Under the pieces are notes generated by a model. That model was not told the origin of the DNA. It saw only the letters and a list, made by a program, of their open reading frames with translations, and did no database searches. The position numbers were made by a program, and so were the translations under genes. A stretch of DNA of 21,839 nucleotides from the IMG/VR virus record IMGVR_UViG_3300006030_001281, positions 1-21,839 of that record. One strand, written 5' to 3'. This stretch comes from a virus. Positions within the stretch are counted from its first letter, which is position 1; each line of letters opens with the position of its first letter. Shown here one piece after another: positions 15 to 17,350 of this stretch.

Positions 15-1043
15 TTAACTCACCAACTTATTAAGTTTAAATCCAGTCGTATAAACTATACACGCTGTTCCACCATGAGAAGTAATGTATACTGTGTTTG
101 AGGTAATTAATCTGAATTCAGCGTAGGCTTGAACTTTTGCGCCTGCTTCTGCTCCAAACATGATTTTATTTGGTGCGTTATTGGTTGCACTAACGCTTCC
201 ATCATTTGAAAATACTGGAGAATCACTTGAGCCTGATGCGGCAATAAAACAACCACGATCAGATAAAGCACTTGGAATAGTTGAAGTTGTATCAACTGAA
301 GAGAAAACATTTGCTGTCGGTGTTCCACTATAAGCAGTTTGACTAACAACGTAATCGTAATGCCTTCCAGTCTGAACAAAATCTATAAAATTACTTGACC
401 CATCATTCCTAACAGCAGAAACTAAGGCTTTCTGGTCATACCCGCTCGGCATCGTTGGAGATGTAGAAGATGTTGAAATTAATCCAGCCACTGTTCCGTC
501 GGTACTTTTTCTAATAACCCAAAGATAATACCAAGTAGAAGATCCTTCTGCCCCAGTGTCTAATCCGTTTGCTCCGCTTGATGTGATGGCTGGGTTTACG
601 CTAACAGACGTACAAAGCCAACCAACATTGTTGGTATCAAAAACAACCAATCTATCAGCCGTGATAGCACAAGTTGTCGCATTGGTTCTAGATACTGAAA
701 GATTAGAAAATCCTCCAGCAGAGGGAGGGATGACCCAAGATGGGTTTGCTGAAGCTCCTCCAGTTCTTAATCCATATCCAGCGGTTCCGGCCCCAAGCCT
801 TGCATTCGCTGAAGACGAACTCGCATAATAAATATCACCCTGAGCCTGAGAGCTAACCGTCAGGTTCGTAATGTTTATCTTCGGCCCCTGATTACTCGTC
901 CCGTCATGCGAATGGCCAGTAGTAGAATTTAAACACGCAACGAAATAGGCGTGAAGAATATCTAGCTGTCCTTCAAGGTCGGCGTCAGTAAGAATCTCCG
1001 TACCCCAGTTTTTTGTCCTTGCGCTATCACTTGGAAATGCCAT
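15..1043 (-). CDS. Putative tail fibre / virion surface protein
   Basis: A 342-residue protein at the end of the visible tail module. The N-terminus (about residues 1-60) is charged and helix-prone and carries a GHSHDGT motif near residue 43, a feature I associate with N-terminal attachment parts of phage fibres and appendage proteins. The rest is rich in Ser, Thr, Gly, Ala and Asn with alternating hydrophobic residues, as expected of beta-structured fibre or receptor-binding domains. The ATG follows GAGGAGG by seven bases, and the upstream stop lies just before the start. No peptidase, lyase or depolymerase motif is evident. The role is inferred from position and composition; the exact receptor-binding function is not shown. 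Confidence 0.65.
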   Translation of the reverse strand: MAFPSDSARTKNWGTEILTDADLEGQLDILHAYFVACLNSTTGHSHDGTSNQGPKINITNLTVSSQAQGDIYYASSSSANARLGAGTAGYGLRTGGASANPSWVIPPSAGGFSNLSVSRTNATTCAITADRLVVFDTNNVGWLCTSVSVNPAITSSGANGLDTGAEGSSTWYYLWVIRKSTDGTVAGLISTSSTSPTMPSGYDQKALVSAVRNDGSSNFIDFVQTGRHYDYVVSQTAYSGTPTANVFSSVDTTSTIPSALSDRGCFIAASGSSDSPVFSNDGSVSATNNAPNKIMFGAEAGAKVQAYAEFRLITSNTVYITSHGGTACIVYTTGFKLNKLVS

Positions 1044-1045
1044 TG

Positions 1046-2626
1046 TTAAGCCTCCTCTAAGGCAACTGCTGTAATCTTAATCTTCTTTATCTTAGGCAGA
1101 ACGCTCGTTCCGCTGTTTGAGAATGTGAATTGAAAACGTCTACCAACCGCATCATTCGGGAATGTATACACTCTCGTCTTATCCGCAGGGGTGGTTGTAA
1201 TGTAAGAAGTATTTACGATGAAAGTAGTATTAAGGTTATCTCCCGTAGCTGTAAGGTCTATGCTTTTAGACCCACTGTGCAACCCACGATCTGCATCCCA
1301 GAGAACAGACACTGCCCCGACTGTACCATAGAAACTGACTGTCATCTTGAGAAGCTTCATGCGGACATCATCAATGGGAAATTGTCCTCCAGATGCAAGA
1401 GCGAAATCTCTGGAAGAAAAAGTCTTGGTCTTATAGACCGCTAGAGTGTTCTGACCCTCATCTGAATTATCAGTTGTTTCAAGCTCATAAATCTTATCTT
1501 TCTGAGAAGACGCACAGTAAAACTCGTTATTGGAATACTGAAGCCTTGCGGGATACCCGAAGTTATCGGAGAGAGCTGTGTTCACGGGGCGATTCATCCA
1601 ACGCCCAAACTTCGCATCGTACACTCTCATGCGGTTAGGATACGTAACTCCTGAATTAGTCTCATTGTAAATAAGATAATACTTACGGTTACGGTAGAAT
1701 CCAAATATTCGCTTTGAGAAGTCAATGAGATCAACGAATACATCGTGGTTAAACTGAGTAAGTTCAGTGAAAGTATTTCCATCAAACAGAAATACTCCAA
1801 GAGTAGGACGGCGAGAAACAAAGTATACACCTTCGTTGCCTAGGGCTATGGAATACGGCGCACCACAACCACGAGAAGGAGTTCCGATTGCTCTGAAAGC
1901 AGTATTAGGGAAATTGCTTAAGGCATACGCCTTCTCTTCAGTGAATACTAACTGCTCGTTTCCAGAAGGAAAATCCATCACCATTCCCCTGGTATCCCCT
2001 GGGACATCGACGCTCCACGCATCGTTCGACAGACTCCACGCATCTGCCGCTGTCCAATTGCCTATCCCTGTTCTTGTACCATATACTCTGTAAGGATAAG
2101 TGGCCGACCCTTCTGCCGTGAGCCTGTTCTTATGCTTATAAATCCTAGCACAAGCCGTGGGGGGAACGCTAGCAGGGGTGGCAATTGCCACGCCCACTGC
2201 CTTCTTCTTAAGATTGTCCGTAGAGTTTGTGATCCATAGAAATCCACCAGTGTCTGAAACCCCGTGAGATAAAACGCCACTTGTGAATGCCCCGTTATCA
2301 TCGTTCGTGAATCCAGAACCATTTTTATAAATCAGATCTCCTTCAACGATTCCGTAGGTGTTAGTTCCTCCAGCGTCTTTATGCTGAATAAGCAGGTCTA
2401 GGGGATTGGTATAACTTGCCCCACCATCAGCGACCTCGTTGAACCCATTTGATCTCTGCATCCCACCAAGAGAAATCGCATCCCAGTTCTCAACGGTTCG
2501 TGCTTCTTCCGTCTTCATAGCTTGGTCTTCAGAGATGGTATTCTCACCGCCTGCAAAGGAAAGAATCTCTAGCGCAAGTTCCTGAAGCGAATATTTATCT
2601 AATACCGAATTATTAGAGAGTCCCAT
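1046..2626 (-). CDS. Tail tube/nozzle-type structural protein, probably beta-propeller
   Basis: A 526-residue virion protein. A short N-terminal helical part (about residues 1-60) is followed by many beta-rich segments. One of these reads RGCGAPYSIALGNEGVYFVS near residues 250-270 and recalls repeated blades in P22 gp10 / T7 gp12-like phage tail proteins. It lies directly after the head-tail adaptor, which is the usual place for a nozzle or tail-needle-docking protein of a short-tailed phage. The start ATG shares one base with the adaptor stop (TAATG), so translation is coupled. A long-tail or baseplate role is less likely because no tape-measure or sheath gene is in view. The family assignment is by pattern and gene order. 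Confidence 0.65.
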   Translation of the reverse strand: MGLSNNSVLDKYSLQELALEILSFAGGENTISEDQAMKTEEARTVENWDAISLGGMQRSNGFNEVADGGASYTNPLDLLIQHKDAGGTNTYGIVEGDLIYKNGSGFTNDDNGAFTSGVLSHGVSDTGGFLWITNSTDNLKKKAVGVAIATPASVPPTACARIYKHKNRLTAEGSATYPYRVYGTRTGIGNWTAADAWSLSNDAWSVDVPGDTRGMVMDFPSGNEQLVFTEEKAYALSNFPNTAFRAIGTPSRGCGAPYSIALGNEGVYFVSRRPTLGVFLFDGNTFTELTQFNHDVFVDLIDFSKRIFGFYRNRKYYLIYNETNSGVTYPNRMRVYDAKFGRWMNRPVNTALSDNFGYPARLQYSNNEFYCASSQKDKIYELETTDNSDEGQNTLAVYKTKTFSSRDFALASGGQFPIDDVRMKLLKMTVSFYGTVGAVSVLWDADRGLHSGSKSIDLTATGDNLNTTFIVNTSYITTTPADKTRVYTFPNDAVGRRFQFTFSNSGTSVLPKIKKIKITAVALEEA

Positions 2627-3306
2627 TAGTTCCCGAAGTCGTAACCCGTGCCTTGAGTGTCGTTAGTGAATCCGCCGATTGAGTTAACATCAGGGTTTGC
2701 GTAGTTCTTGTCAACGTATAGTCTTTCAGAGTAAGCCTGAGCATCCCTGACGTATTTTTGGTAGATCGCCATATATTTGTCTGAAATATCATTCTTCCCA
2801 ATCTGCATCATCAGTTGATAGGCGGCGTAATAAACAGAAGCCTCACGATACTCCTCTGGGAATAAACTCACATCGGAATCTGAGGATAGCTCAGTCGTTG
2901 GCTTCTTAATGTAATAAAGAGAGTAAGTCGTCCCGTTTGGAGATCCGAAGAATTTGATGTAGCGAACGGATGATTCCTCAGAGAAATAGTAAAGCGGTAC
3001 GCTTCCAGAGTATGAGTTCCATCTCTCATATTCCTTCACGCTAACTTCCCGGTCGTTCGTAAGGACTAGATCGTTCACAATCAAGCAGTAGATTTCCAAG
3101 AAATCTGTAGGAACAGTGATTGAACCACCGCTAACCGTCCCGGAAGTCTTCTCACGGAGATACTTAGTGTCCTTCGCAAAACACCACTCCCCACGGTTTA
3201 TAGCCTTCTTACGTTGAGCCAGTGGGAACTGATCGTCCGTCCCAGTATTACTATCTCCTAATAGTGAACTAAGAAGTGATTGTTGATCGCTGAATGTAAA
3301 ACTCAC
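2626..3306 (-). CDS. Head-tail adaptor protein (SU10/P22 gp4-like)
   Basis: A 226-residue protein expected to form the dodecameric ring below the portal and link it to the tail. The N-terminal part is helical with an AxNRGxW stretch near residues 35-41. It is followed by the GTVSGGSITVPTDF segment (56-69) that marks this adaptor family, a beta-rich middle, and a helical part with EEYREASVYYAAYQLM near 148-163. The start is GTG at 3306, overlapping the TGA of the GT-B gene (GTGA), with AAGGAG seven bases upstream. In related phages I would expect this gene close behind the capsid gene. Here it is separated from the capsid by about 5.7 kb of mostly sugar-related genes. Confidence 0.75.
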   Translation of the reverse strand: MSFTFSDQQSLLSSLLGDSNTGTDDQFPLAQRKKAINRGEWCFAKDTKYLREKTSGTVSGGSITVPTDFLEIYCLIVNDLVLTNDREVSVKEYERWNSYSGSVPLYYFSEESSVRYIKFFGSPNGTTYSLYYIKKPTTELSSDSDVSLFPEEYREASVYYAAYQLMMQIGKNDISDKYMAIYQKYVRDAQAYSERLYVDKNYANPDVNSIGGFTNDTQGTGYDFGN

Positions 3307-4448
3307 GATGTTACTCCTTCAGGCTTAAGAGCTTTCTCATAAGCCTCAATCCAAAGATGAGCTTTTGTGTTTGAATTGTGATTCTCTAAAACTTCTTCTT
3401 CCGCACGTTTCGCTAAGTTAATCCTCTTATGCTTATCTGAAATCAAGGAGTTAATTGAATCCACCCAGTCTTTCTTGTCTTCAGCTCCGCATAGAATCCC
3501 TGTTCTTCCGTTGTCAATGACTTTAGAGTACGGAGGAATGTTACTCGCCACCGTTGCCATTCCCATCAAGGAATACTCCATCCACTTAATCGCAGACTTA
3601 TTACGATTAAACACATTATCAACAAGAGGGCATAGGCCAATATCAATGTTCATAAGAGCGAGCTTGTAAGGATAAGTCGCATGACTTACCCACGGATGCC
3701 ATTCGATCTGATCTTGAGGGCAATCTTTAAATAGTCCAGTGAACCGCATATCCCCAAAGTATACGAACTTAGCTGTCTTATTTTTCTCTAGAACTTCCTT
3801 GATTACGTCTTTCAAGAAGTATAAGTCCTCATAATGGGAGGCTCCACCCTGCCAACCAAGCCTAACACCTTTCTTAACCATCTCAACATTACGAGGGAAA
3901 AAATCAGGGTCGATAAGATTAGGGAGAACAGCAACATTTGGATTTATCTTCAAAAACTCTTGACGAAGTTCTTCTGTGGTACAGGTCACTAAATCGCTCT
4001 TCTTGAAGTTCAAACGAAACATATCACGGTGGTTAATGTTGCGCTCAATGTCGAAGATTCGCTTCCCACCCGCCGACACCATCCCTTCGCTCCAAAGCAT
4101 TTCCTTAGTACCATCTGCCCAAGTCCACTCCACCTCTTCTGTCCCCGTATACTGATAGAAAGGATTCAGCGGAGAGGTGTTAAAAGGATCATCGTCGTAA
4201 TCACTGACAATCACCTTCCCATATTTTCTGCAAGTTTTGATGAAATTAAACCATGCCTCAGAAGCGGGTCTTTGGAACATAATGATGTCAGCCCATAAAG
4301 CCATCTGCGTGGCTTCGGGAGTCCCAAGCTGAGACTCCTTAAGGATGAAAACATCAGCCAACTTATTCTCATCGATCTTCACAAGAGGCTGAAGTACCCG
4401 GTAGTAGGAACAAGCCGTAGCATCACGTTCAATCCCTAGAATCTTCAC
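3303..4448 (-). CDS. GT-B fold glycosyltransferase (GT4-like)
   Basis: A 381-residue protein, the usual length of a family 4 glycosyltransferase, predicted to transfer a sugar from a nucleotide-sugar donor. The N-terminal Rossmann half begins MKILGIERD and contains SDYDDDPF (82-89). The C-terminal half has LGWQGGASHYEDL (197-209) and NKSAIKWMEYSLMGMATVAS (283-302), which matches the GT4 donor-binding region where a conserved Glu (here E291) contacts the nucleotide sugar. NGRTGILC (313-320) follows. The start is GTG at 4448, overlapping the TGA of the kinase fusion gene. Donor and acceptor cannot be read from sequence. It is the last gene of the sugar block before tail genes resume. Confidence 0.85.
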   Translation of the reverse strand: MKILGIERDATACSYYRVLQPLVKIDENKLADVFILKESQLGTPEATQMALWADIIMFQRPASEAWFNFIKTCRKYGKVIVSDYDDDPFNTSPLNPFYQYTGTEEVEWTWADGTKEMLWSEGMVSAGGKRIFDIERNINHRDMFRLNFKKSDLVTCTTEELRQEFLKINPNVAVLPNLIDPDFFPRNVEMVKKGVRLGWQGGASHYEDLYFLKDVIKEVLEKNKTAKFVYFGDMRFTGLFKDCPQDQIEWHPWVSHATYPYKLALMNIDIGLCPLVDNVFNRNKSAIKWMEYSLMGMATVASNIPPYSKVIDNGRTGILCGAEDKKDWVDSINSLISDKHKRINLAKRAEEEVLENHNSNTKAHLWIEAYEKALKPEGVTS

Positions 4449-5443
4449 GCAGACACACCCTTTTCTTCCAGTTCGTACTGGATTTGTTTAACTACACATC
4501 TCATAGAGTAATCATCATCAAATCCCCAGGAAGGCTTATTGGGATACCCTAGGCAGGAAGGGGCAGGTTTACTCTCAATCTCATCCACATACACAGACCA
4601 GCCAAAATCAATCAGCTTAATCACGCCGTCCTTAACAGTCAGGTTGTCAACCTTTAAATCTCTATGAATTATACCATGAATTTTTAAGTCTTGCATTATT
4701 TCAATTAGCTGTTCTCTCCAATTGTCAGGTATATAGGATAGAATCGGATATCCGCAATCTTCCATCGTGATAACATTTCCGTCATAGCCAAAGACCTTTG
4801 GGAAGTGCGGGGAGTTCGCATCTCTAAGTTTTTCATACTCATTTTGGATTAGCTTGTAACTCTTATAGTTCACTTGCTCTTTCTTGATTTTACCGTCTTC
4901 CTTGGTAACTAGAGCCGTTGCTCCTTTCCAATATCCGTTAAATGATCCCACAGATTTATCCTTTGGTGCTATCCACCCGATTGATGATTTCTTAAGTGCC
5001 TCAAGTAGTCCTTCCACAGAAGCATCACCAAGGAATCTCGTGTATTCCCTAGAGATATAATCCTTGTGATGGACGGCGTGATAAGCAAGAGCAATCCTAT
5101 GGTGGATTGGGTTTGGCGTATAGAATCCCTTAGAGTTCCACTCACGAGTCTCTAAGATTGCCCGTTCAAAGTCCTCAGGGTAATAGTCATCTCCGATATG
5201 CCTAACATCCACATAAACGTAGCTATCATCCACCGCTAGCTTCATCCTCACTCTTGGATACGGATATTCCGCTACAGCCTCAGGGAATATCTCTTTCCAA
5301 TGCTCAAAGTCTGCCACGAGCAAGTCTAAGTCAGAATGTTCACCAAGATTAAAGTCGTAGGGTAGACCGTCCCAATTACGGAGAACGACATACTCAAATG
5401 AAATATCATTCATATAAGCGAAAAACTGCTTTAGGCTTTGCAA
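4445..5443 (-). CDS. Nucleotidyltransferase-protein kinase fusion protein
   Basis: A 332-residue two-domain protein. Residues 1-150 look like a minimal nucleotidyltransferase: GEHSDLD (34-40) is the G-x2-S-D-x-D metal-binding signature, and D79 in VYVDVR is a candidate third carboxylate. Residues 160-325 look like a kinase of the protein-kinase/LPS-kinase superfamily: a loose glycine loop (GYWKG, 170-174), candidate ATP Lys K188, candidate helix-C Glu in NEYEKL (201-206), HRDLKVDN (260-267) with catalytic D262 and N267, and DFG (279-281). All core kinase catalytic residues appear present. The start is TTG at 5443 with AAGGAG eight bases upstream; it overlaps the WbqC gene by 13 bases. The substrate may be a sugar, lipid-linked glycan or protein. 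Heptose or Kdo kinases are possible relatives; this is inference. Confidence 0.75.
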   Translation of the reverse strand: MQSLKQFFAYMNDISFEYVVLRNWDGLPYDFNLGEHSDLDLLVADFEHWKEIFPEAVAEYPYPRVRMKLAVDDSYVYVDVRHIGDDYYPEDFERAILETREWNSKGFYTPNPIHHRIALAYHAVHHKDYISREYTRFLGDASVEGLLEALKKSSIGWIAPKDKSVGSFNGYWKGATALVTKEDGKIKKEQVNYKSYKLIQNEYEKLRDANSPHFPKVFGYDGNVITMEDCGYPILSYIPDNWREQLIEIMQDLKIHGIIHRDLKVDNLTVKDGVIKLIDFGWSVYVDEIESKPAPSCLGYPNKPSWGFDDDYSMRCVVKQIQYELEEKGVSA

Positions 5444-5982
5444 GATTTAAACTCCTTGTTAAGAATCTTTACAGTCCCATCAATTCCGTGGGACTCAAAC
5501 ATCTCAGGAAGTGATTTTCTGTACTCAGCTGGAGGATGACATGAAACCATCTCAATCCCTGCGTCATTTAATTCTTTCTCACTTAAATACTTGTCCGTAG
5601 CCTCAGGATTCGTAAGGTACTGATCGCAATTAAATCTCTTGCAAATCTCGATAATTCTCTCTGTTCCCTTAGATTCCGTTGGAAAATCGTAGTGAATCTT
5701 TGAGGTGTTAATACCAAGAGCCTTAGCCAATCCGATAATCAGCGGCATATTCACATCAATAAGTTTATTACCATTTGAATAATGCTTATCCTTAATCGCC
5801 ATCGTTCCGCCCGTCACTGGAACACTCCACCATTTATCCTTAACTAACGCACGATTCTGAAACCCGTTCTTTTCAAACTGACAATGGATCATAACAACGA
5901 ACACATCCGCCTTCGCCATCTTATAGAAGAACGGAAAATAAGGAAAAAAATTAGGCTGATGTATGGCTATCTTACCTGCCAC
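5431..5982 (-). CDS. WbqC-family protein
   Basis: About 183 residues from a GTG at 5982. It has the hallmark N-terminus of the WbqC family: KIAIHQPNFFPYFPFFYKMA, then ADVFVVMIHCQFEKNGFQNR. WbqC-like proteins are found in O-antigen, exopolysaccharide and amino-sugar loci; their exact chemistry is not settled to my knowledge. I prefer the GTG at 5982 because GAGG lies six bases upstream and the protein then begins like family members. A longer version from GTG at 5994 lacks a clear ribosome site. It overlaps the methyltransferase stop by 11 bases and is followed by the kinase fusion, supporting a shared glycan-related role. Confidence 0.8.
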   Translation of the reverse strand: MAGKIAIHQPNFFPYFPFFYKMAKADVFVVMIHCQFEKNGFQNRALVKDKWWSVPVTGGTMAIKDKHYSNGNKLIDVNMPLIIGLAKALGINTSKIHYDFPTESKGTERIIEICKRFNCDQYLTNPEATDKYLSEKELNDAGIEMVSCHPPAEYRKSLPEMFESHGIDGTVKILNKEFKSCKA

Positions 5983-6451
5983 GAAGAACCTCACTCAATC
6001 TCTTAAACATTCCCTCATCATCCGTAAGGGTTACCGTACTCATTTCGTCCGTCCATATTTGGAACTTGTACTCCAACACTGCTTCTCTGTATTGCTCACG
6101 ATCTGCGTCATGGAGCATAACCGGGCATCCAAGACATCGAACTTCCCTGAGACAAGCGGAGCGATTCCTTCCATCGACGAACACAAAATCTGTTTTCTTT
6201 TCAAGCTTTGTTTTTGCGTAGGTATCGAGATTTGGCTCGTAAACGAGCTTCGTGTTATCTGAGCAATTCCCCTTATTCTTTTCGTAATACTCCTTATCGT
6301 GTTCAACAGAAAGTAGCGAGACAACGCTAGGATACATTCCCATAATCTGAGTAGAAAATCCGCTCCCGAACTCAAGGACTGTCTCAGGCTTGAGAAGTTC
6401 CAGAACTTCATAGAGCGTTTCCTTGTAGCTGTCCCAACTTCTTGCCGACAA
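5972..6451 (-). CDS. Class I SAM-dependent methyltransferase
   Basis: A 159-residue compact Rossmann methyltransferase from a TTG start at 6451. Motif I is VLEFGSGFST (25-34), which binds S-adenosylmethionine. SVEHD (48-52) supplies the acidic residue at the end of strand 2, FVFVDGRNR (89-97) is the strand-4 motif, and LHDADR (113-118) follows. I chose TTG 6451 because TGGAGG sits exactly six bases upstream. The longer frame from an ATG at 6508 would overlap the deacetylase-like gene by about 100 bases. Class members near glycosyltransferases often methylate sugars, but the acceptor here is unknown; small-molecule or protein methylation is equally possible. Confidence 0.75.
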   Translation of the reverse strand: MSARSWDSYKETLYEVLELLKPETVLEFGSGFSTQIMGMYPSVVSLLSVEHDKEYYEKNKGNCSDNTKLVYEPNLDTYAKTKLEKKTDFVFVDGRNRSACLREVRCLGCPVMLHDADREQYREAVLEYKFQIWTDEMSTVTLTDDEGMFKRLSEVLRGR

Positions 6452-6968
6452 GATAATCCTCCAATTGTTCAGTAGTCCAACGCCAGGGATGCAGATACCA
6501 TTTCTCATGATTCAAATCAAACTTGTTATGCTCCATAGAAAGCCATCCGTCTGATAGTTTCTGGAGCTTAATTCCGTGATCCTTACAGATCATTTCAGTC
6601 TGCTGGTTCCATCTATTAAATGGCGGAACGAATATGTCCGTATCCAAGTACCTGCACGAACTCACAATGCTCATCTCTTGAGCATCGATTCCAATCCTTG
6701 AATGATCGCAGTGAATAAGACCATGAGATACCAGCTTGCGATTAAAAAGGTGAGGAAGGAAAGTTCTATCAACGTTATAAAAATATTCTTTAGGTTTGTC
6801 CTTAAACGGAACATCCGGGTAAACCGAATTAACGTTTGAAGACTTCGAGAACATATTAACCGCAAACCATATCTCAAGATTCGGAATCGCATCGTCTAGT
6901 ACCTTTATAAGATTGTTCATCTTATACACATTGGTGTTTGGGTTCACATCATCAAATCTGATTATCAT
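6408..6968 (-). CDS. Polysaccharide deacetylase-like hydrolase
   Basis: A 186-residue protein starting at ATG 6968, which overlaps the TGA of the GT-A gene (ATGA). It opens with IIRFDDVN, the N-terminal Asp-Asp motif of NodB/CE4 and DUF2334-like deacetylases (D6, D7). SHGLIHCDH (81-89) supplies metal-binding His residues (H82, H86), and VPPFNRW (114-120) matches the conserved PPxxR motif. HPWRW near 160 may give the catalytic His. The family removes acetyl groups from N-acetylated sugars. A longer frame up to 7097 exists, but its extra 43 residues are an out-of-frame reading of the upstream gene. At 186 residues the domain is short for the family, so some strands may be reduced. Confidence 0.7.
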   Translation of the reverse strand: MIIRFDDVNPNTNVYKMNNLIKVLDDAIPNLEIWFAVNMFSKSSNVNSVYPDVPFKDKPKEYFYNVDRTFLPHLFNRKLVSHGLIHCDHSRIGIDAQEMSIVSSCRYLDTDIFVPPFNRWNQQTEMICKDHGIKLQKLSDGWLSMEHNKFDLNHEKWYLHPWRWTTEQLEDYLVGKKLGQLQGNAL

Positions 6969-7654
6969 AACTCTGAACTCCATGCGATAGGTCTTCCGAC
7001 ATAAGATGAATAGGCTTGATGTTCTTCTGATTTGATGTGATTTTCGTGCTTCCCACTCCAATGGCCGATGTCTTGGACGGTTACATTCGGAAGCCAACCG
7101 ATCTTTGGTTCCTTCTCGACTATGATCTGATAGAGCAAACTAAACGCCCCCTTGATTCCTCTTGCGCTCATTCTTTCGAACTGAACGTCATCAAGTAGAC
7201 TCGTTCTCATAATCCAGAGTCCACCGACAATCTTGGAGGGGCGATAAGGAAGACCATCCTCATGTTTTCCATGAACGAACGCCGCATTAGAAGGCTCAAC
7301 ATTCGGAGAGAGAATATCAACATCCGTTGACTCAAACACTTTTACTACGTCATTAAGCCAGTTCACAGGAACCGCACAGTCATTATCGATCTTAGCGATA
7401 AGGTCAAATCTCTCATTCTTTGCCCAGTCAAAAAACCCAAGAATGCTCGATCTAAGTCCGTGATTTTCCTTAGAAATGATAGTGGTAGAATCAAGACTTG
7501 CGTTATTTAGAATATCAGAAGTACCATCCTGTGAGCCGTCATCAAGAAGATAGAACTCGCAATCCTTATACTCTTGCGCTTTTTCTAAAGCCTTGATGCA
7601 GATGGCTGTGTACTCAGGGCGTTTGAAGCAAGGGACAAATATACCGACCTTCAT
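6965..7654 (-). CDS. GT-A fold glycosyltransferase (family 2-like)
   Basis: A 229-residue glycosyltransferase that begins MKVGIFVPCFKRPEY, a typical family 2 N-terminus. DDGSQDGT (38-45) is the nucleotide-binding motif and KIDNDC (88-93) holds the D-x-D metal site (D90, D92) that positions the nucleotide-sugar. GGLWIMRTS near residues 144-152 is typical of the acceptor-side segment. It is soluble, with no membrane helix, so it probably acts in the cytoplasm. ATG 7654 overlaps the previous TGA (ATGA) and GAGG lies seven bases upstream. Together with the GT-B enzyme it gives the phage two sugar-transfer steps. Donor and acceptor are unknown. Confidence 0.85.
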   Translation of the reverse strand: MKVGIFVPCFKRPEYTAICIKALEKAQEYKDCEFYLLDDGSQDGTSDILNNASLDSTTIISKENHGLRSSILGFFDWAKNERFDLIAKIDNDCAVPVNWLNDVVKVFESTDVDILSPNVEPSNAAFVHGKHEDGLPYRPSKIVGGLWIMRTSLLDDVQFERMSARGIKGAFSLLYQIIVEKEPKIGWLPNVTVQDIGHWSGKHENHIKSEEHQAYSSYVGRPIAWSSEL

Positions 7655-8100
7655 AACTCTGCCTCAATTACCGCTTGACGTAAGGTCTTGTACTGATCCT
7701 TAGTCAGCTCTAAACGCAAGTCCCATAGCTTAAGATGAACATACTCCGGGTCTTCTAACTGTGCGCCCTCTGCAAATATCTTTCCGACATTCATAGAGTA
7801 GAGATTCTTATTCAAGTTAATCTTCACGGAATCTCCGCCAAGATTCTTAGAACCTACGACTTTCCTGCAAAGTTCAATGTGAGTACCCTCGGCTGGCTCA
7901 GGGCATCTGCGCTCATCCCAACGCCTAAGAGAATCCGCCATCCCCTTAGCCATTTCTTTCCAGTCTTCTAAGGAAAGGAGAATTCTTAGATTCTTGTAAT
8001 GAACGTGAACCGCCTCACAGATCTCCACAACAAATCTCTTGGGAAATATCTGCTCACCATCTAGCTTAGACTCTTTAAGATTCTCTATCGTCTGACCCAT
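7651..8100 (-). CDS. Conserved-looking protein with an internal duplication
   Basis: A 149-residue protein I cannot name. Two copies of a unit are visible: residues 31-51 (VHVHYKNLRILLSLEDWKEMA) and 121-141 (VHLKLWDLRLELTKDQYKTL and one more residue), in register at an offset of 90 residues, sharing V-H, L-R, L and K plus many conservative changes. Each unit reads as a beta hairpin followed by a helix. CPEPAEG (66-72) and FAEGAQLEDPEYVHL (109-123) are other notable stretches. It sits at the head of the sugar block, coupled to the GT-A gene by ATGA and to the 156-aa gene by TAATG, so a role in sugar metabolism or as a binding partner is possible but unproven. Confidence 0.65.
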   Translation of the reverse strand: MGQTIENLKESKLDGEQIFPKRFVVEICEAVHVHYKNLRILLSLEDWKEMAKGMADSLRRWDERRCPEPAEGTHIELCRKVVGSKNLGGDSVKINLNKNLYSMNVGKIFAEGAQLEDPEYVHLKLWDLRLELTKDQYKTLRQAVIEAEL

Positions 8101-8570
8101 TAGTTCAAAACCAAACCTTCCTGGGAATTACTCCCGTAGTATGCTTTTACTTTCATTAGAGTTTCCATCGGATCATCACCCCGAAGAATATTCTTCATGA
8201 ACTTTCTCCAGACCTTCTCATTCGCCTCTTCCCAAAAATCCGAATAGACAAGATTCACCATGAAAAGATAGAGTTCTTGCGGGATCTCATAATCAAACTT
8301 GAACTCTCCTTTTTCGCTCCATCCCATTGAGTCCGTATACTTTCCCTTCTTCCCAATCTGATTAAGCTCATCCCACTTAAGTTTATTCTGCCAACGAGTC
8401 ACTTCGCATAGGCGTGGAAAATCATCAATTCGATTCTCGCAGAACTTCTTATATACCAAGTTAATAAACTCAAGAGGGTTCTGCTTGGCAAGGCGAGGGT
8501 TTTCTTTTAAAGCCTCAGCTTGTGCATTCTCTCTTAAAGCCTCGTTTGACGAAGACTTAAAATCATCCAT
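8100..8570 (-). CDS. Hypothetical late protein, 156 residues
   Basis: Start chosen at ATG 8570, which shares its A with the TAA stop of the upstream gene; AGGAG lies about ten bases upstream. A longer frame to 8597 only adds nine residues read from the neighbouring gene. The protein is charged and helical. The N-terminal 40 residues are Glu, Lys, Asn and Ala-rich; the middle is rich in aromatics (FDYEIPQELYLFMVNLVYSD, about residues 90-109), followed by FWEEANEKVWRKF. No signal peptide, membrane segment or catalytic motif is visible. Position between a capsid-adjacent protein and the sugar block leaves its role open: a virion protein or an accessory factor for the block. Confidence 0.65.
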   Translation of the reverse strand: MDDFKSSSNEALRENAQAEALKENPRLAKQNPLEFINLVYKKFCENRIDDFPRLCEVTRWQNKLKWDELNQIGKKGKYTDSMGWSEKGEFKFDYEIPQELYLFMVNLVYSDFWEEANEKVWRKFMKNILRGDDPMETLMKVKAYYGSNSQEGLVLN

Positions 8571-8968
8571 TAAATAGCTTCTCCTGAAGCGGTGCAAGAA
8601 CCAGTCGCTTGGGTTGTAGCCGCACCGTCCACTGTCACATTCAGAGCTGTGTTAGCAGAAAGAATGTAACCATTAGGAGCAAGATTGAATGAGTAAACAG
8701 CTACGGCATCAGCATCAGCTTGAAAGATTCGAGTTCCATTGGCCCCATTTTCTAAAGCAATTTCTCCACCACTACCAACAGCCGCAACCTCAACAGCGCA
8801 TACAACAGAAAGAACTCTAATCGAAACACCCGCACCCTGAGCGGGGATTACGCTGGCATCAACCGAACCGTTAGAAACACCAGCCGTACCATAAACGGTA
8901 CGTCCATCAGCAAACACATCTGAGCTTAAAATCATCAAAGCAACCAACACCATCAAAAGTTTTTTCAT
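8570..8968 (-). CDS. Small exported or decoration-like protein with Sec signal peptide
   Basis: A 132-residue protein. Residues 1-20 are a textbook Sec signal peptide: MKK, a hydrophobic core, and a VFA cleavage site before Asp21. There is no lipobox Cys. The mature part (about 112 residues) is small-residue-rich with alternating hydrophobics, as in one beta-sandwich domain. Two Cys residues (one near 57 in SVVCAVEV, one near the C-terminus in GSCTASG) could form a disulfide, fitting export to the periplasm or surface. The gene lies directly after the capsid gene, where decoration proteins are usual. It follows AGGAG with a six-to-seven-base spacing. Without the signal it would be called a decoration protein. 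Confidence 0.7.
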   Translation of the reverse strand: MKKLLMVLVALMILSSDVFADGRTVYGTAGVSNGSVDASVIPAQGAGVSIRVLSVVCAVEVAAVGSGGEIALENGANGTRIFQADADAVAVYSFNLAPNGYILSANTALNVTVDGAATTQATGSCTASGEAI

Positions 8969-9028: not shown

Positions 9029-9952
9029 CTAGGCGATAGTTCCACCAGATTTCAAATAGCTGGCTTTACCATGTCCTTTTTCATTACCCCAGTTTAAAGT
9101 CTGCTCAGATTCGACCCATCCACGAACGGATGAAGCGGCCTGCGCTCCTTTATACTGTTCGATATCACGGAAGATACCAACCCGAACAAGGGAAGGCGTC
9201 ACAATCGTGATACGCTTCGTCATGTGCTGACGATCACCGATAATGTCAAGAGTACCGAAAGAACCTTCGTACTTATTGACGTTAGCGATGGCTGTACGAG
9301 CAGACGCTTCAATGTTCCAAGTGAATCCAGTCTTCGCAGAGAATTTCTTGGAAATAACGTTCTTGTTGTGTCCACCGCAATACAACGCTCTAGGATCACC
9401 GCCCTGCGCCCAGATTTTCTTAAGGAGCAAGTTAACGTTATCTTCTGTTAGCTGAATAACACCTGAATTACCAGCACCCGTTCCAACAGCGGTATTCGTG
9501 ACAATAGCTTTCTGAATACCCTTGGATTTACGTCCCGTGGAAGTAGTACCCGCAGACGTATTACCAGTATTCAAGAAGATTTTGTCATAATCCGTCATCA
9601 AAGACTTCATCGCTTTCATTACTTCACGAGCGATTTGGTCAGGAACCCCGGCAACATCCATCGAAGCCTGGGAGAAAGTAACATCCCAGTTACGAAGACG
9701 GATATGGCAGTAGTTTTGGTGACGGGTACGAGTTGCGGGTTGCGTATAAGTAACAGTCGCACCTTCAACGATAGCCGTAGTGCTAGCCGCCGCTAAAGAA
9801 TCGTCCTGCCACTCAGTTTTACTATTTCCCACTTTGTATTTCTTCGCCATCGCATAAAACGGGACTTCATCGGCGAAAAGGTCAGCGACCTTATTCGAGA
9901 GTTCTTCCCGATTTCCTTTAGCGAAGTACGTATTTACCTGTGTAGACGCCAT
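9029..9952 (-). CDS. Major capsid protein (SU10-like, DUF5309 type)
   Basis: A 307-residue HK97-fold shell protein, a usual length for this family. The N-terminal stretch NREELSNKVADLFADEVPFY (14-33), then TEWQDDSLAAA (47-57), is the recognisable opening of the SU10/DUF5309 capsid family; the later GTLDIIGDRQ and WVESEQTLNW segments fit the C-terminal part. No long N-terminal delta domain is present, consistent with the separate scaffold gene just upstream. The ATG follows AAGGA by seven bases. A strong stem-loop follows the gene, as expected for a highly expressed product. Confidence 0.85.
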   Translation of the reverse strand: MASTQVNTYFAKGNREELSNKVADLFADEVPFYAMAKKYKVGNSKTEWQDDSLAAASTTAIVEGATVTYTQPATRTRHQNYCHIRLRNWDVTFSQASMDVAGVPDQIAREVMKAMKSLMTDYDKIFLNTGNTSAGTTSTGRKSKGIQKAIVTNTAVGTGAGNSGVIQLTEDNVNLLLKKIWAQGGDPRALYCGGHNKNVISKKFSAKTGFTWNIEASARTAIANVNKYEGSFGTLDIIGDRQHMTKRITIVTPSLVRVGIFRDIEQYKGAQAASSVRGWVESEQTLNWGNEKGHGKASYLKSGGTIA

Positions 9953-9979: not shown

Positions 9980-10981
9980 TTAACTCTTGTTCGGCTTATA
10001 CATATCCTGGGAAATAACAGACTTCTTGAAGAAGTTCAGCTTGTCATCCTCAGTCCCATGCTTGGCTTTCTGAAAGGTCTTTCGATCTGTCTCAGCCTGC
10101 TCGGTTCCTTTGGTAACACCGCTATCCACGCTCACCTTCTTCTTAAGGCTATTGAATTTCCGCTCGGTTTCCACGCTCTTTGATTTCCCCTCCGATAATT
10201 TGGAAACTTCTTTATAGTGTTCAACAGCTAGGTTCCAAGCTTCAGCCTGACCGTTAACACTACTTTTCAAAGACGAAGACTTAGCGTAAATCTCCTGGGC
10301 TTTCTTGAATATCTGAGGACTCGCTTGTTTAAAGTTCGGAATTTCTCCGTCAGAAACGGTTTCATTCACGGCTTCGTTAAACTTACGAATCTGAGAATCA
10401 GCAAAACGCTTAGGAGCGTTAGAGGCGACTGAATCAATCTTATCCTCTAAGTCCATAAGCTCGTTTAGCTTCGCACGATCCTGAGCCTGCACAGCGTTCA
10501 TTTGCTCTGCTTTCACTTGACGTTTTAAAGCCTTGAGCTGTGCGTCATCCATCGCTTCGAGCTTCTGAAGATCAGAGTCTTCCGGGGTTCTCTTTTCCTC
10601 GGCCTGCTGTTCAAGCTTACGAAGTCTCGCCGCCATTTCCTTCTTCTCACGGGTAAGCTCGTCAATTCTCGCTTGAACCTTCGACTTCGGAATTAAGTCC
10701 TCTTCCTCTTCATCTGATTCATCAGACTCAGAATCTCCATCGTCCTCAACATCTTCGGACGCTTGCTCTTCCTCAGAATCCTCTACATCTTCTTCCTCTT
10801 CCTCTTTTTTCTTAGGCCCACGCTTTTCATCTTCTATCTTCTCGTCAATCTCATTAGCAAGATTGGAGGGTAAATCAAAGCTCTCGACGAGCTTTTTTGC
10901 AAACTCGTCCTCTCGTGAAAATTGATCCGCCGAATTAAGAGCTTTCTGTTCTGGGTTCATGTTGTTTATATTTACTGGCAT
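9980..10981 (-). CDS. Scaffolding protein (acidic, coiled-coil)
   Basis: A 333-residue, highly charged protein immediately upstream of the capsid gene, the standard place for a head scaffold. Residues about 58-97 are a near-continuous Glu/Asp/Ser tract. Residues about 99-150 read as a heptad-rich coiled coil (VQARIDELTREKKEMAARLR and following). The C-terminal third is helical and basic, fitting a capsid-binding end. No Ser-His-Asp or Ser-Lys protease motif is seen, so this is not an obvious scaffold-protease fusion. AAAGGT precedes the ATG by about eight bases. Identification rests on position and composition. Confidence 0.75.
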   Translation of the reverse strand: MPVNINNMNPEQKALNSADQFSREDEFAKKLVESFDLPSNLANEIDEKIEDEKRGPKKKEEEEEDVEDSEEEQASEDVEDDGDSESDESDEEEEDLIPKSKVQARIDELTREKKEMAARLRKLEQQAEEKRTPEDSDLQKLEAMDDAQLKALKRQVKAEQMNAVQAQDRAKLNELMDLEDKIDSVASNAPKRFADSQIRKFNEAVNETVSDGEIPNFKQASPQIFKKAQEIYAKSSSLKSSVNGQAEAWNLAVEHYKEVSKLSEGKSKSVETERKFNSLKKKVSVDSGVTKGTEQAETDRKTFQKAKHGTEDDKLNFFKKSVISQDMYKPNKS

Positions 10982-11121: not shown

Positions 11122-11505
11122 TTAGTCCGGCCCATAGTTATAAGAGTGAACGCCCTCAAGGTTTTCCTCTGATGGTTTCATGAGCTTGTCTTTGTCTAAA
11201 ACAAATTGCTCAAGATCGCACCAAAGAGAATCGGCCATCTCAAGACGCCCTAGCACACGCTCGCTTGGAACATTCATAGTCCTAGAAGCTGAAAGCTCAG
11301 AACTAGTACGGCCCACAGTCAGAGCCTTAATCACCGCCCCAAACTCTCCACGAAGAACACGCTCTACTAGATTCCCGACATAGATAATATGCTCTGCTTC
11401 CTTGCGCCCACATCCCGCAAGGCGATCTTCAATATCAAGTTGAATCTGAGTATCCTTCGCCCTCTTCGCACTCTCGGCAATCTGAACTTTCTTACTTTTC
11501 GCCAC
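11122..11505 (-). CDS. Hypothetical protein between portal and scaffold
   Basis: A 127-residue protein with a very basic N-terminus (AKSKKVQIAESAKRAKD) followed by helical segments and a C-terminus rich in Tyr, Asn and Asp. The start is GTG at 11505, with AAGGTAGG just upstream, and it overlaps the portal gene by 14 bases. No family is recognised. The GRKEAEHIIYVGNLVERVL stretch (about 33-51) suggests an amphipathic helix. Genes in this slot in other phages often encode small head-assembly or internal proteins; here that is only suggested by position. Confidence 0.6.
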   Translation of the reverse strand: MAKSKKVQIAESAKRAKDTQIQLDIEDRLAGCGRKEAEHIIYVGNLVERVLRGEFGAVIKALTVGRTSSELSASRTMNVPSERVLGRLEMADSLWCDLEQFVLDKDKLMKPSEENLEGVHSYNYGPD

Positions 11506-13537
11506 TGCCTACCTTCGCTTTCTTCTCCACATCTGGAGCGTATTTCCTTCCCTGAATCGGGACTAGCTGAGCTTCCTTCATAACCTCTAAATGATCCTTC
11601 CCTTTCTGCATCAACAAAGCTGTCTGTAACTGCTTGACCTGTTGAGCCTCAGCTTGCATAGCGTCAGCTTGCATTTCTTGAGGAGTCTTAAGAAGAACCT
11701 GAGAAAGACGCAGATCGTCATCATCAAGATACTGCTTCCTTAACTGATCCTGACGAATGTACGGATCTCCATTAAACATCTGTAGCCTGTTCTGTGCTTT
11801 CTGCGCCCTTAACTGAGGATTCGAGTTATCAAGCCGTCCGTTCGGAACAAGATTGAATCTACCCTGTTGTTCTTTTCTGGTAATCCTCATCGCAGGTTGG
11901 CCTGTAATAGCTATGGACTCTTCATCGTCCCCAAACTGGTAGTACAGAGAGTCGATCTGATAATACAGATCTACCATTTGAGATTGGAAGACGAGAAGAT
12001 CCATTGAATTCTGCTGAGAGGCCGCCCCTTCAATCGCCCCGACCTCTCTTGCAGTCTTAGTACCCTGTGGGCCTGAGCCTGGGGTGTTGTTCACCTGAGA
12101 AATCGCCGCTTGAATGTTTCCAATTCGGTCATTTGCCCAGGCTTTCAGGTATTGCATATTGTTAAAACGATTCGCCTGACCTAAGTTCGTGTTCTGGACA
12201 ACAGTGTAATCAGCTGTTCCATTTTCTGTCTCAACGACTTGTCCGGGTACATACCTAAGATTCCTAAGATTCTTAACTGAGTTCTTCCTCGCCACAACAG
12301 TAGGAGTAGTCGTAATCGTCCCCGCATCAATGTCTTGGTTGAACAAAGTTGAGATACCAGTCTGAAAGTCATCATCAAGAGCAGGTATTCCACGGCTCGA
12401 CATAATCTCCGCATCGTTGTACTCCCTTCTTACCACCACATATGGAAACATTCCGTGGTCGTAGGGGTTTTCAATAAATCTAAGAATGCAATCTGGATCG
12501 GCATCAGGGAAAGTAATAATCACCCTCTCATCAATCCCGTCATTGTTTGTGTCATACCAAGTAGAGATCTCATGAAGAAGTATTAAATCCTCCTGAGAGT
12601 TCTCTGCGTGAATCCCGTCACGGGTGGCCTTCAAGAATTCAGTCGTCGAACCATCCGCTGATTTCGTAGTCCAACAATCAATATCATAATCATCATACTT
12701 CTCATACTTACCCGACTTAATACACTTCTTAATATGATCCTTAGTCACCCAAAACTTATGGTCAATAAACTGAGCTTCCTGAATATCACAAGTCCCAACA
12801 GGGAAGATCACATCCTCCCTGGGGTTCAACGCTTTAACCTCGGCTCGGTTCACGGCTTTCTCGGTAAACTCTAGTTCAAATCTAGATTTACCCTGGCGGA
12901 ATTCTTTCACTGCCTTCTTGATGGCTTCCATGTTTTCCTCAAGAGTCATATCGGGCTTTAAATCCTCAGCGATAATCGCCCCGATCATCTCGTCATTCAC
13001 CTCAGGCATATACATCGCTTCCAAGATCTGCTGAGGAACTTCCTTTAAATCAATCACTTTCAAATAAGTCCTAGTCTCAAATCTCCAACCAGTCTTAAAA
13101 AGTGTAAACCCGTTGTGAAGCATATAATCCACGGACAGACAATAATCCTTAAAGAACTTGACCTGAGTCCTCATTCTCCAATCAAATAGAATCTCCCTCT
13201 TACGAGCTGGCTCAACATCCTCCGCCCCAAACGGCTCAAAGGTAACGATTGGACTTACGCCCATCGCCAAATTCACATAAGCTGGCTTCAGCCGATTAAT
13301 ATCAGAATCAATCTGAGGAAGGATGAAGTTTGCGCTGCCAGGCCAAGGGAAATTCTTCTTTGATCTAATCCCATACCGCTTACGGGTATAAGAATCTATT
13401 CGGTTCTCCCACTCCTCCCTGTTACTCTTCTCGTCCCGTGACTTCCCGAAAATCTCCTGAGTAAACTCCCTAACCTTATCATCAATCTTAATCGAAGCGA
13501 TGCTATCTAATGCCTCTGGGTCTTTTATCTCTTCCAC
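11492..13537 (-). CDS. Portal protein
   Basis: A 681-residue portal, the dodecameric channel through which DNA is packaged and ejected. The size fits the large portals of short-tailed phages. PWPGSANFILPQIDSDINRL (64-83) is characteristic of the N-terminal clip/wing region, and EYNDAEIMSSRGIPALDDDF lies in the stem/crown-proximal part (about residues 370-390). The C-terminal 130 residues are Gln, Ala and Met-rich and helical, matching a P22-like barrel. The start is GTG at 13537 with GGAG six bases upstream; the upstream 44-aa gene ends just inside it. It lies after TerL as usual. Confidence 0.85.
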   Translation of the reverse strand: MEEIKDPEALDSIASIKIDDKVREFTQEIFGKSRDEKSNREEWENRIDSYTRKRYGIRSKKNFPWPGSANFILPQIDSDINRLKPAYVNLAMGVSPIVTFEPFGAEDVEPARKREILFDWRMRTQVKFFKDYCLSVDYMLHNGFTLFKTGWRFETRTYLKVIDLKEVPQQILEAMYMPEVNDEMIGAIIAEDLKPDMTLEENMEAIKKAVKEFRQGKSRFELEFTEKAVNRAEVKALNPREDVIFPVGTCDIQEAQFIDHKFWVTKDHIKKCIKSGKYEKYDDYDIDCWTTKSADGSTTEFLKATRDGIHAENSQEDLILLHEISTWYDTNNDGIDERVIITFPDADPDCILRFIENPYDHGMFPYVVVRREYNDAEIMSSRGIPALDDDFQTGISTLFNQDIDAGTITTTPTVVARKNSVKNLRNLRYVPGQVVETENGTADYTVVQNTNLGQANRFNNMQYLKAWANDRIGNIQAAISQVNNTPGSGPQGTKTAREVGAIEGAASQQNSMDLLVFQSQMVDLYYQIDSLYYQFGDDEESIAITGQPAMRITRKEQQGRFNLVPNGRLDNSNPQLRAQKAQNRLQMFNGDPYIRQDQLRKQYLDDDDLRLSQVLLKTPQEMQADAMQAEAQQVKQLQTALLMQKGKDHLEVMKEAQLVPIQGRKYAPDVEKKAKVGSGEK

Positions 13538-16281: not shown

Positions 16282-16443
16282 ATGACAAAAGTAAATGTAG
16301 ACGTTGAGGAGTTGGAAAGATTGCTAGAAGATGCCATGAATGACGCTTGCATGGCAAGGGAAAACGTACAAAAGGCAATCAGTAAGATCAATTCGATTAA
16401 ACAAAATTGGATCACTAAACAACAATTAAAAGCGCAAGCTTAA
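16282..16443 (+). CDS. Small helical protein, first rightward gene
   Basis: A 53-residue protein (MTKVNVDVEELERLLEDAMN and following). It is largely one or two amphipathic helices (ELERLLEDAMNDACMARENV, KAISKINSIKQNW), suggesting a dimeric helical bundle. A good ribosome site, AGGTGG, lies five bases before ATG 16282. As the first gene after the divergent control region it might be a regulator or an anti-host factor, but there is no recognisable DNA-binding motif. Confidence 0.65.
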   Translation: MTKVNVDVEELERLLEDAMNDACMARENVQKAISKINSIKQNWITKQQLKAQA

Positions 16444-16481
16444 CACTTTAACCGCCGATCTTTCGGCAGAGAGAGGACACG

Positions 16482-17081
16482 ATGGAAACTCTAGAACTAT
16501 CGCCAAAAGTAAGCTTTGGCAATAAGAAACTCCCAAAAGATACATTGATTTTTAATATTCCCGCCGTGAAGACTTGCCCGGGAAAAACGGCTCTTTGTTC
16601 TAAAGACTGCTATGCATTAAAGGCCGAAAGACTTTACCCGCAAGTATACCCAGCAAGAAAGCATAATCTTAAATTGACTATGAGCAATAATTTTCCGTCT
16701 TTAATGATTGGAATTATTCAAAAGAATCAGAAGAAAATTAAACAAGTAAGAATTCACGAGGCCGGGGATTTTTATAGTCAAGCTTACTTAGATAATTGGT
16801 TCTTAATTGCTAAAGAATTCCCGGGTTTGACGTTTTATGCATACACTAAGTCTTTCCACTTAGATTTTAGCGGGAAGCCGTCAAACTTTGTCCTTATAGC
16901 GTCTTTCGATGAATCATCTACCATGAGAGACAAAGGCCTATATGAATTCCGCAAGGCCTATTTTAATAATACCTTTACGATCGTCGACAAGAAAGCCCAA
17001 GCTTCATGCATCCAGGACTGTACTGCTTGCAATGCCTGTTGGAAATCTTCAGGGCTTAATATAACCGTCAATAAACATTAA
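16482..17081 (+). CDS. GP88-like cysteine-rich phage protein
   Basis: A 199-residue protein with the pattern I recognise from the mycobacteriophage GP88-type family of unknown function. CPGKTALCSKDCYA gives C32, C39 and C43. RIHEAGDFYS (90-99) and FYAYTKS (118-124) are the conserved core. A C-terminal group C-x3-C-x2-C-x2-C (C176, C180, C183, C186) follows. Seven clustered Cys suggest an iron-sulfur cluster or zinc sites; the H-E-A-G-D motif looks catalytic. GAGAGAGG lies upstream of ATG 16482. It may act in nucleotide or DNA metabolism given its neighbours, but no reaction can be assigned. Confidence 0.7.
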   Translation: METLELSPKVSFGNKKLPKDTLIFNIPAVKTCPGKTALCSKDCYALKAERLYPQVYPARKHNLKLTMSNNFPSLMIGIIQKNQKKIKQVRIHEAGDFYSQAYLDNWFLIAKEFPGLTFYAYTKSFHLDFSGKPSNFVLIASFDESSTMRDKGLYEFRKAYFNNTFTIVDKKAQASCIQDCTACNACWKSSGLNITVNKH

Positions 17082-17083
17082 AA

Positions 17084-17350
17084 ATGAAAACAAATATGGA
17101 AAATATTCCCTTGTGGATGAAAGGCAAAAGCGAGGAAGAGATAAATAGCTTGATGGAATTAAGAGAGCGGGCTTTCCCAAAAACCAGAAAGGAAAATAAA
17201 ATGAAGCTAACCATAGAGGAATTAGAAAATACCCAGGAATGCGCTATCTGTGGAGGGTATTATCCAGAGATTATGATGATCGAATTTGCCGATGATAGCA
17301 CTAGAAGTTATGGCGGGGTCAAGTTTATGTGCAAGGAGTGTGACCTATGA
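17084..17350 (+). CDS. Small zinc-ribbon-like protein
   Basis: An 88-residue frame. The second half has CAIC (C54, C57) and C83-x2-C86, a four-Cys zinc ribbon. The first half (NIPLWMKGKSEEEINSLMEL) is charged. Two starts compete: ATG 17084, three bases after the previous gene but without a ribosome site, and ATG 17201 with AGGA about seven bases upstream, giving a 49-residue zinc ribbon only. Both could be used. The stop overlaps the next gene (ATGA). Function unknown; DNA or protein binding is possible. Confidence 0.6.
   Translation: MKTNMENIPLWMKGKSEEEINSLMELRERAFPKTRKENKMKLTIEELENTQECAICGGYYPEIMMIEFADDSTRSYGGVKFMCKECDL

Follow-up and report, generated by a model that had tools for sequence, protein, structure and literature searches.

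A seven-gene block separates the capsid region from the head-tail adaptor gene

The window analyzed here is the whole of IMG/VR record IMGVR_UViG_3300006030_001281, a 21,839-base fragment of a phage genome. Between its capsid region and its head-tail adaptor gene, seven intact open reading frames (ORFs) occupy positions 3303-8100 of the minus strand, a stretch which the initial annotation, made from the sequence alone, had described as a sugar-modification block. In order of transcription the genes are as follows:

7651-8100, minus strand: repeat protein, 149 amino acids (aa), first gene of the block and always present; new family (28-row alignment; model with predicted local distance difference test score, pLDDT, of 92)
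6965-7654, minus strand: GT-A, a soluble GT2-type glycosyltransferase, 229 aa (PF00535, 4.3e-18; no membrane segment)
6408-6983, minus strand: deacetylase of CE4/NodB fold, 191 aa, variable cassette gene (invariant DD and HG..H..H; AlphaFold2 [AF2] model)
5972-6508, minus strand: S-adenosylmethionine (SAM)-methyltransferase-like protein, variable cassette gene (PF13578, E 0.016, below cutoff; PDB 3cvo, 7.5e-6)
5431-5994, minus strand: WbqC-family protein, 187 aa (PF08889, 1.5e-24; 18-row alignment of proteins at the same position)
4445-5443, minus strand: nucleotidyltransferase-like and protein-kinase-fold fusion (NT-kinase), 332 aa, fixed frame (Pkinase, RIO and APH matches)
3303-4448, minus strand: GT-B, a GT4-type glycosyltransferase, 381 aa, fixed frame, abutting the adaptor gene (PF13692, 6.5e-11; phrog_7162, 1e-39)

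The mostly overlapping joins reported in the initial annotation were confirmed, with short overlaps measured at nearly every joint. The conserved gene p165 upstream of the block overlaps the repeat-protein gene by 1 nt (TAATG), followed by overlaps of 4 nt (repeat protein/GT-A), 19 nt (GT-A/deacetylase), 101 nt as annotated (deacetylase/methyltransferase), 23 nt (methyltransferase/WbqC), 13 nt (WbqC/NT-kinase) and 4 nt (GTGA) at both NT-kinase/GT-B and GT-B/adaptor. The deacetylase start was corrected to ATG 6983, giving 191 aa instead of the 229-aa ORF beginning with TTG. Judging by the alignment of relatives, TTG 6451, some 19 codons into the annotated ORF, is the probable start of the methyltransferase. 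Moreover, promoter-like sites in the block region were fewer than in shuffled sequences (12 vs. 27.9); separate early promoters are therefore not indicated, and the idea of early expression from them was rejected.

The order of the block is fixed among relatives

Relatives were collected by IMG/VR scans with capsid, GT-B, NT-kinase, repeat-protein and nozzle queries, which yielded about 30 contigs and phage contigs in two metagenome-assembled genomes (MAGs). Related or compared records carry L-numbers, L010 being a longer contig of the same phage as the window. Seventeen distinct records span capsid to adaptor (16 in one check and L057 separately, with near-copies counted once and L045 ending within the adaptor gene), and their capsid proteins are 49-79% identical to that of the window. 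All 17 keep the order capsid, p165, repeat protein, GT-A, WbqC, NT-kinase, GT-B, adaptor, which speaks against a chance arrangement or a single aberrant contig, and shorter contigs showed the same order over the part covered. The initial annotation had proposed a joint system, and the search of related contigs bears this out: the genes were found intact and together, on the strand of the virion module, neither scattered nor degraded. Scans with capsid and nozzle profiles returned no relative lacking the block wherever the sequence reached far enough, and alignments showed that active-site residues are kept in all relatives.

Averaged over all pairs of 15 genomes, identity was higher for NT-kinase (56.6%), the repeat protein (54.8%) and GT-B (54.0%) than for portal (51.1%) and adaptor (48.1%). 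Distances among block proteins correlated with those among virion proteins (0.44-0.90), with a permutation p of 0.0005 for all pairs tested. With frame enzymes no less conserved than the portal and with distances that parallel those of virion proteins, the block does not behave as accessory cargo; it is a trait of the phage lineage. An alternative is that unrelated moron genes hitch-hike here with no joint function, as the invasion of the block by HNH homing endonucleases in some relatives might suggest. This is hardly credible and already contradicted by the order, presence and active-site residues kept in all relatives and by frame genes that change as slowly as the portal.

The position of the HNH endonuclease genes varies between relatives, with insertions at several joints within the block or next to it (L012:4563-5135, L017:1794-2357, L026:8657-9103 and L079:3562-4234); they were called by Pfam matches in L017, L026 and L079, and by similarity to L017 in L012.

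An inner cassette is exchanged while the frame stays with the backbone

The main structure of the locus, a fixed frame around an interchangeable inner cassette, had been missed by the initial annotation, the interpretation of which was partly supported overall. The cassette lies between GT-A and WbqC, and relatives also differ at a few other joints. In one type, which is that of the window, a CE4 deacetylase is usually accompanied by one or two methyltransferases. The other type consists of a dehydrogenase-like and left-handed-helix acyltransferase protein, encoded by one ORF or two, in some relatives with a PIG-L deacetylase. In addition, single relatives carry an NDP (nucleoside diphosphate)-sugar dehydratase-type enzyme, a sulfotransferase or an extra glycosyltransferase, and a second methyltransferase family was found at several different positions. 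The variable genes are thus sugar enzymes again. Both cassette types would act on N-acyl groups of sugars, which suggests a shared amino-sugar theme.

Exchange of the cassette was assessed using trees of 17-20 sequences. In the portal tree, L016 and L057, which have the PIG-L/acyltransferase cassette, fall among the CE4-type phages. The GT-B and NT-kinase trees agree with the portal for these two phages, and grouping by cassette was rejected for both proteins by the approximately unbiased (AU) test (p 0.0006 and 0.0015; the groups were defined with the portal tree already in view, which makes these and the following AU p values somewhat optimistic). In contrast, the GT-A tree places L016 and L057 with the other cassette type, and backbone grouping was rejected (p 0.023). 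The trees of WbqC (p 0.003 and 0.092) and of the repeat protein (p 0.405 and 0.063) were less clear, and the repeat protein is accordingly assigned to neither side of the exchange. Furthermore, the DxD-like motif of GT-A reads D-(N/S)-D in 12/12 proteins of the CE4 type and G-N-D in 9/9 of the other type, with the motif of L020 and L039 taken from the alignment as the regular expression missed both. Since this D/G switch follows the cassette type, GT-A is linked to the cassette. The trees show that GT-A travelled with the cassette and that GT-B, NT-kinase and portal remained part of the backbone; GT-A and the cassette probably work together.

Enzyme assignments

The glycosyltransferase, WbqC and kinase calls of the initial annotation were upheld by profiles and its deacetylase call by a CE4 fold model; its methyltransferase and nucleotidyltransferase calls proved weak. 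The PF00535 and PF13692/phrog_7162 matches show that glycosyltransferases are encoded by the phage. WbqC scored 87.5 bits against PF08889 (gathering cutoff, 21.3); a PDB profile search with it gave nothing useful, and nothing on its function was found in the open-access literature.

The kinase half of the fusion has a Pkinase match in 18/18 homologues, as well as matches to PDB kinases, and its HRD...N and DFG motifs together with the kinase profile are those of a protein-kinase fold. Alignment of homologues showed D38 and D40 in the first half and H260, D262, N267 and D279-F-G in the second to be invariant. The nucleotidyltransferase half matches PF14907 alone, at E 0.0094, below the cutoff and in one of the 18 members, although its HxDxD motif is invariant. 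A defence-system reading of the locus was rejected, as the matches behind it were generic kinase matches and marginal PADLOC model matches.

No Pfam or NCBIfam match was obtained for the deacetylase. Its AF2 model has a pLDDT of 81, all 18 PDB matches at E<=1e-3 are CE4 deacetylases, and D11, D12, H87, H91 and H94, the residues for metal binding and catalysis, are invariant in 10 homologues. Because the sequence is too divergent for profiles, the protein is called CE4-like by fold only. The methyltransferase matches the profile of the methyltransferase-like structure 3cvo. Among annotated phages, none matched the repeat protein, NT-kinase, WbqC, deacetylase, GT-A or nozzle, and thus no functional lead came from cultivated phages.

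The repeat protein represents a new family

The model of the repeat protein contains two strand-strand-strand-helix units. In agreement with this, its half-versus-half score exceeded that of 997/1000 shuffles, and 1000/1000 in two distant homologues, supporting the internal repeat named in the initial annotation. Distant two-repeat homologues with clear HIHYRNLR-type repeats lie at L053:3012-3401 (a Poribacteria MAG) and L050:8408-8788 (a different, 56-kb virus contig). No family match was found, nor any fold match in the PDB or among viral models, and a PDB profile search gave nothing useful. By sequence and model comparisons, the protein represents a new family without a known fold. It is worth study as a possible scaffold or acceptor-recognition part.

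Among bacterial genomes, one homologue was found in the Poribacteria MAG and none in 84 further genomes of that phylum; this single occurrence gives no bacterial context from which the function of the protein might be inferred. Matches in Nitrososphaeraceae and Parcubacteria carry phage genes and look like phage contigs inside MAGs. In L046 (IMGVR_UViG_3300022868_000203), the repeat protein at 9983-10420 is identical over its available length to the L042 protein, at a contig end and with quite different upstream genes, which may reflect a chimeric assembly or a recent transfer. The 56-kb contig L050 also has a gene at 16338-17378 on the minus strand that we read as GT9-like (no Pfam match).

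The block is embedded in an SU10-type virion module

According to the ORF list, the virion module occupies positions 15 to about 15,990 of the minus strand, with its genes in the order small and large terminase, portal, scaffold, capsid, p165, block, adaptor, nozzle-like protein and fibre-like protein, and the plus strand past 16,270 carries replication-type genes. The features that define the module are:

11492-13537, minus strand: portal protein, SU10 type (PF23899, 5.7e-28)
9029-9952, minus strand: major capsid protein, SU10 type (PF17236, 3.9e-54; phrog_1328, 9.4e-51)
8100-8597, minus strand: p165, between the capsid gene and the block, which it borders upstream; conserved in relatives (no match in a family search)
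2626-3306, minus strand: head-tail adaptor, the downstream border of the block (PF24175 SU10_adaptor, 3.1e-17)
1046-2626, minus strand: tail nozzle/head-closure-like protein (phrog_578, 0.003; adjoins the adaptor and is conserved in relatives)

Capsid, portal and adaptor of SU10 families thus follow one another as in an SU10-type podophage module, and the assignment of these three proteins to SU10 Pfam families makes a short-tailed phage most likely. Among 50,697 annotated phages, none matched the large terminase at 80% coverage; its matches there were all below 60% identity, and at most 35% among the matches listed.

Several neighbouring genes were also recorded. Most relatives match only the first ~100 residues of the fibre-like protein (15-1043, minus strand), the pattern that would arise if its base is conserved and its host-binding part changes. 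A small protein with a secretion-signal-like hydrophobic N-terminus is encoded inside the virion operon (8570-8968, minus strand); similar N-termini occur in virion operon or fibre genes at L008:11099-11680, L012:19545-21143 and L011:19385-20590, which is unusual among the structural genes of a tailed phage. On the strand opposite to the virion module lie a GP88-family gene (16482-17081, plus strand; PF17338, 1.4e-35) and a gene that reads, by motif only, like a DNA cytosine methyltransferase (17568-18176, plus strand; no Pfam match). In the relative 3300009537_000233, a further glycosyltransferase gene (PF13524, 5.4e-13) and another, unassigned gene lie between portal and the next conserved gene (L007:3540-5334), away from the capsid-adaptor slot.

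The particle is the favoured target

The initial annotation had considered glycosylation of the particle or late remodelling of host surface glycans, rather than early DNA modification. Its first option is favoured here by soluble enzymes, by the absence of export genes among the related records and by portal-like conservation, and its second is disfavoured. None of the block proteins or their family members has a membrane-like segment (largest mean hydropathy over 19 residues, 1.61), so that the enzymes look soluble, as cytoplasmic glycosylation of virions would lead one to expect. The late-gene position and the evolutionary rate shared with virion genes also argue for the particle.

Late remodelling of host lipopolysaccharide or capsule, for instance so that progeny avoid sticking to debris or the cell excludes other phages, was weighed against searches of 13 related records. 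The weak similarity of GT-A to GtrB-like phage glycosyltransferases (phrog_841, 2.1e-9) would fit such a role, as would the match of one kinase-fusion homologue to the lipopolysaccharide kinase family WaaY (0.0024); however, GT-A, at 229 aa, does not have the membrane helices of GtrB. A GtrA-type flippase was found in 0/13 records (controls positive in 7/14), and neither a Wzx-type flippase nor an acyltransferase-3 membrane protein in any of the 13, with control genomes positive. GT2 proteins above the cutoff occurred once per record, in the block, and no further GT2 protein, membrane-anchored undecaprenyl-phosphate glycosyltransferase or polytopic glycosyltransferase was found. An integrase was present in 1/13 records. 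Serotype conversion of the Gtr type was rejected for lack of the GtrA flippase and of a membrane-anchored glycosyltransferase in these records. Since membrane segments, flippases and membrane acyltransferases are absent and integrases rare, and the genes sit among and co-diverge with late virion genes, host remodelling is unlikely.

The product might instead be a soluble or packaged glycoconjugate, or the target an internal ejection protein or a protein secreted by a signal peptide, and not the particle exterior. Small secretion-signal-like proteins do adjoin or lie inside the block, as in the window and L008, and we know of no described role of a kinase/nucleotidyltransferase fusion in protein glycosylation. 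Nevertheless, these small proteins are conserved neither in place nor in sequence among relatives, whereas the block is, and we consider this explanation improbable.

Hypermodification of DNA with sugars deserves mention because phage glycosyltransferases often glucosylate DNA (PMC12619734). However, no base-modifying enzyme that would make a hydroxylated or otherwise reactive base was found among the block proteins (the replication half was read from ORFs and a few family matches only), the block lies in the late module, and the cassettes are of an amino-sugar type (CE4, PIG-L, hexapeptide acyltransferase). DNA as the target is accordingly very improbable.

A proposed late cytoplasmic pathway for a variable particle glycan

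We propose, with a probability of roughly 60%, that a late cytoplasmic pathway places a variable glycan on a virion protein. Gene content and order, conservation, exchange and the fold and family calls are direct results of the comparisons; the production of a glycan, its virion target, its chemistry and the order of reactions are what we infer from them. The block would be expressed with the late virion genes and the modified sugar built in the cytoplasm, with a particle protein (capsid, p165, adaptor, nozzle or fibre) as the acceptor. The fixed frame of NT-kinase and GT-B, always accompanied by repeat protein and WbqC, would make or attach an invariant core, and the outer sugar would be determined by GT-A and the exchangeable cassette together. 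The cassette of the window comprises a CE4 de-N-acetylase and a methyltransferase-like protein; that of relatives comprises the dehydrogenase-like/acyltransferase protein, with or without PIG-L deacetylase, NDP-sugar dehydratase or sulfotransferase. Swapping the inner segment would thereby change the surface sugar of the particle and leave the virion unchanged.

Several points weigh against this proposal. The glycan, its acceptor and the enzymatic activity are predictions from the genes, and no known protein-acceptor glycosyltransferase family, the signature of protein glycosylation, was found. Two of the seven enzyme calls, nucleotidyltransferase and methyltransferase, are weak, lying below curated cutoffs, and the repeat protein has no family or fold match pointing to function. 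In addition, the D/G and cassette switches amount to a few evolutionary events, not 21 independent ones, and close linkage alone would give part of the correlation between block and virion distances, although it does not account for the low rate of change of the frame genes.

Given its portal-like conservation and its presence wherever the sequence allowed it to be seen, the pathway is probably required to make or use the particle. More tentatively, a whole uncultured lineage may have an obligatory glycan-synthesis locus within virion morphogenesis, with a fixed core, to which the two-repeat protein family and the NT-kinase fusion belong, and a recombining cassette that switches the sugar type. 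If this is true, a cassette switch would in effect create phage serotypes, like bacterial O-antigen loci or chlorovirus capsid glycans. From the exchange of the cassette within a fixed frame, it is predicted that particles otherwise alike differ in their sugars. Few systems with sugar-bearing phage particles are documented, and outside mammalian immunity these sugars have no established purpose.

Comparison with known systems

Capsid and tail-tube subunits of mycobacteriophages carry glycans that alter immune recognition (Freeman et al. 2023, as described in PMC12619734 and PMC11256854). The present block resembles that system in its phage-encoded glycosyltransferases. For mycobacteriophages, the parts of those reports drawn on here describe glycosyltransferases alone, located in Maravista near the 3' end of the genome; in contrast, the present locus, for which a glycan is predicted from the genes, has at least seven genes in the capsid-adaptor interval, including a deacetylase, WbqC, a kinase fusion and an exchangeable cassette.

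The working principle is similar to that of chloroviruses, the major-capsid-protein glycans of which are virus-encoded, made in the cytoplasm and composed of a common core with variable decoration, and some of which carry a polysaccharide deacetylase gene (PMC5408694). Chloroviruses differ in being eukaryotic algal viruses with N-linked glycans, and the analogy is one of working, not of descent. To our knowledge there is no homologous locus or shared operon, and membership is not claimed.

Three-component glycosylation (Gtr) systems, which are defined by their membrane parts (PMC11409707), likewise transfer sugars by a small, often phage-borne gene set, and GT-A is distantly GtrB-like. Unlike them, the block has no membrane-bound undecaprenyl-phosphate glycosyltransferase, flippase or polytopic glycosyltransferase.

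A similar layout was seen in Podoviridae sp. ctQWt234 (MW202801.1), a deposited metagenomic phage from Manatee Spring with six sugar enzymes between capsid gene and adaptor: radical-SAM-like protein, glycosyltransferase, PhyH, methyltransferase, NodB-like protein and glycosyltransferase. The last of these, a homologue of GT-B (profile E 2.9e-49), likewise lies directly against the adaptor gene. However, this phage does not have the repeat protein, WbqC or NT-kinase, and its capsid and adaptor are unmatched by the present families. MW202718.1/MW202524.1 have three glycosyltransferases after the capsid gene, and MW202711.1 and MW202496.1 have one each. Sugar enzymes thus also occupy the capsid-adaptor slot of independent phages whose capsids or gene sets differ; we know of no study of these deposited metagenomic podophages in this respect. 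The present block also marks the capsid-adaptor gap in SU10-like podophages as a recurring site for sugar enzymes.

The LUZ24/SU10-type podophages UFV-P2, HTVC106P, Venkman and phiM5 share the order terminase, portal, scaffold, capsid, small protein, adaptor, but have no annotated glycosyltransferase in the capsid-adaptor slot. Sinorhizobium phage phiM5 (MF074189.1) has a GDSL/SGNH hydrolase there (L098:6346-7656), annotated as detected in the particle proteome. The SU10 structure paper makes no mention of sugars (PMC9509320). Taken together, glycosylation of phage virions is itself known from mycobacteriophages, and a hard-wired multi-enzyme locus with a fixed frame and a swappable cassette, the likely target of which is the particle, represents a new form of it.

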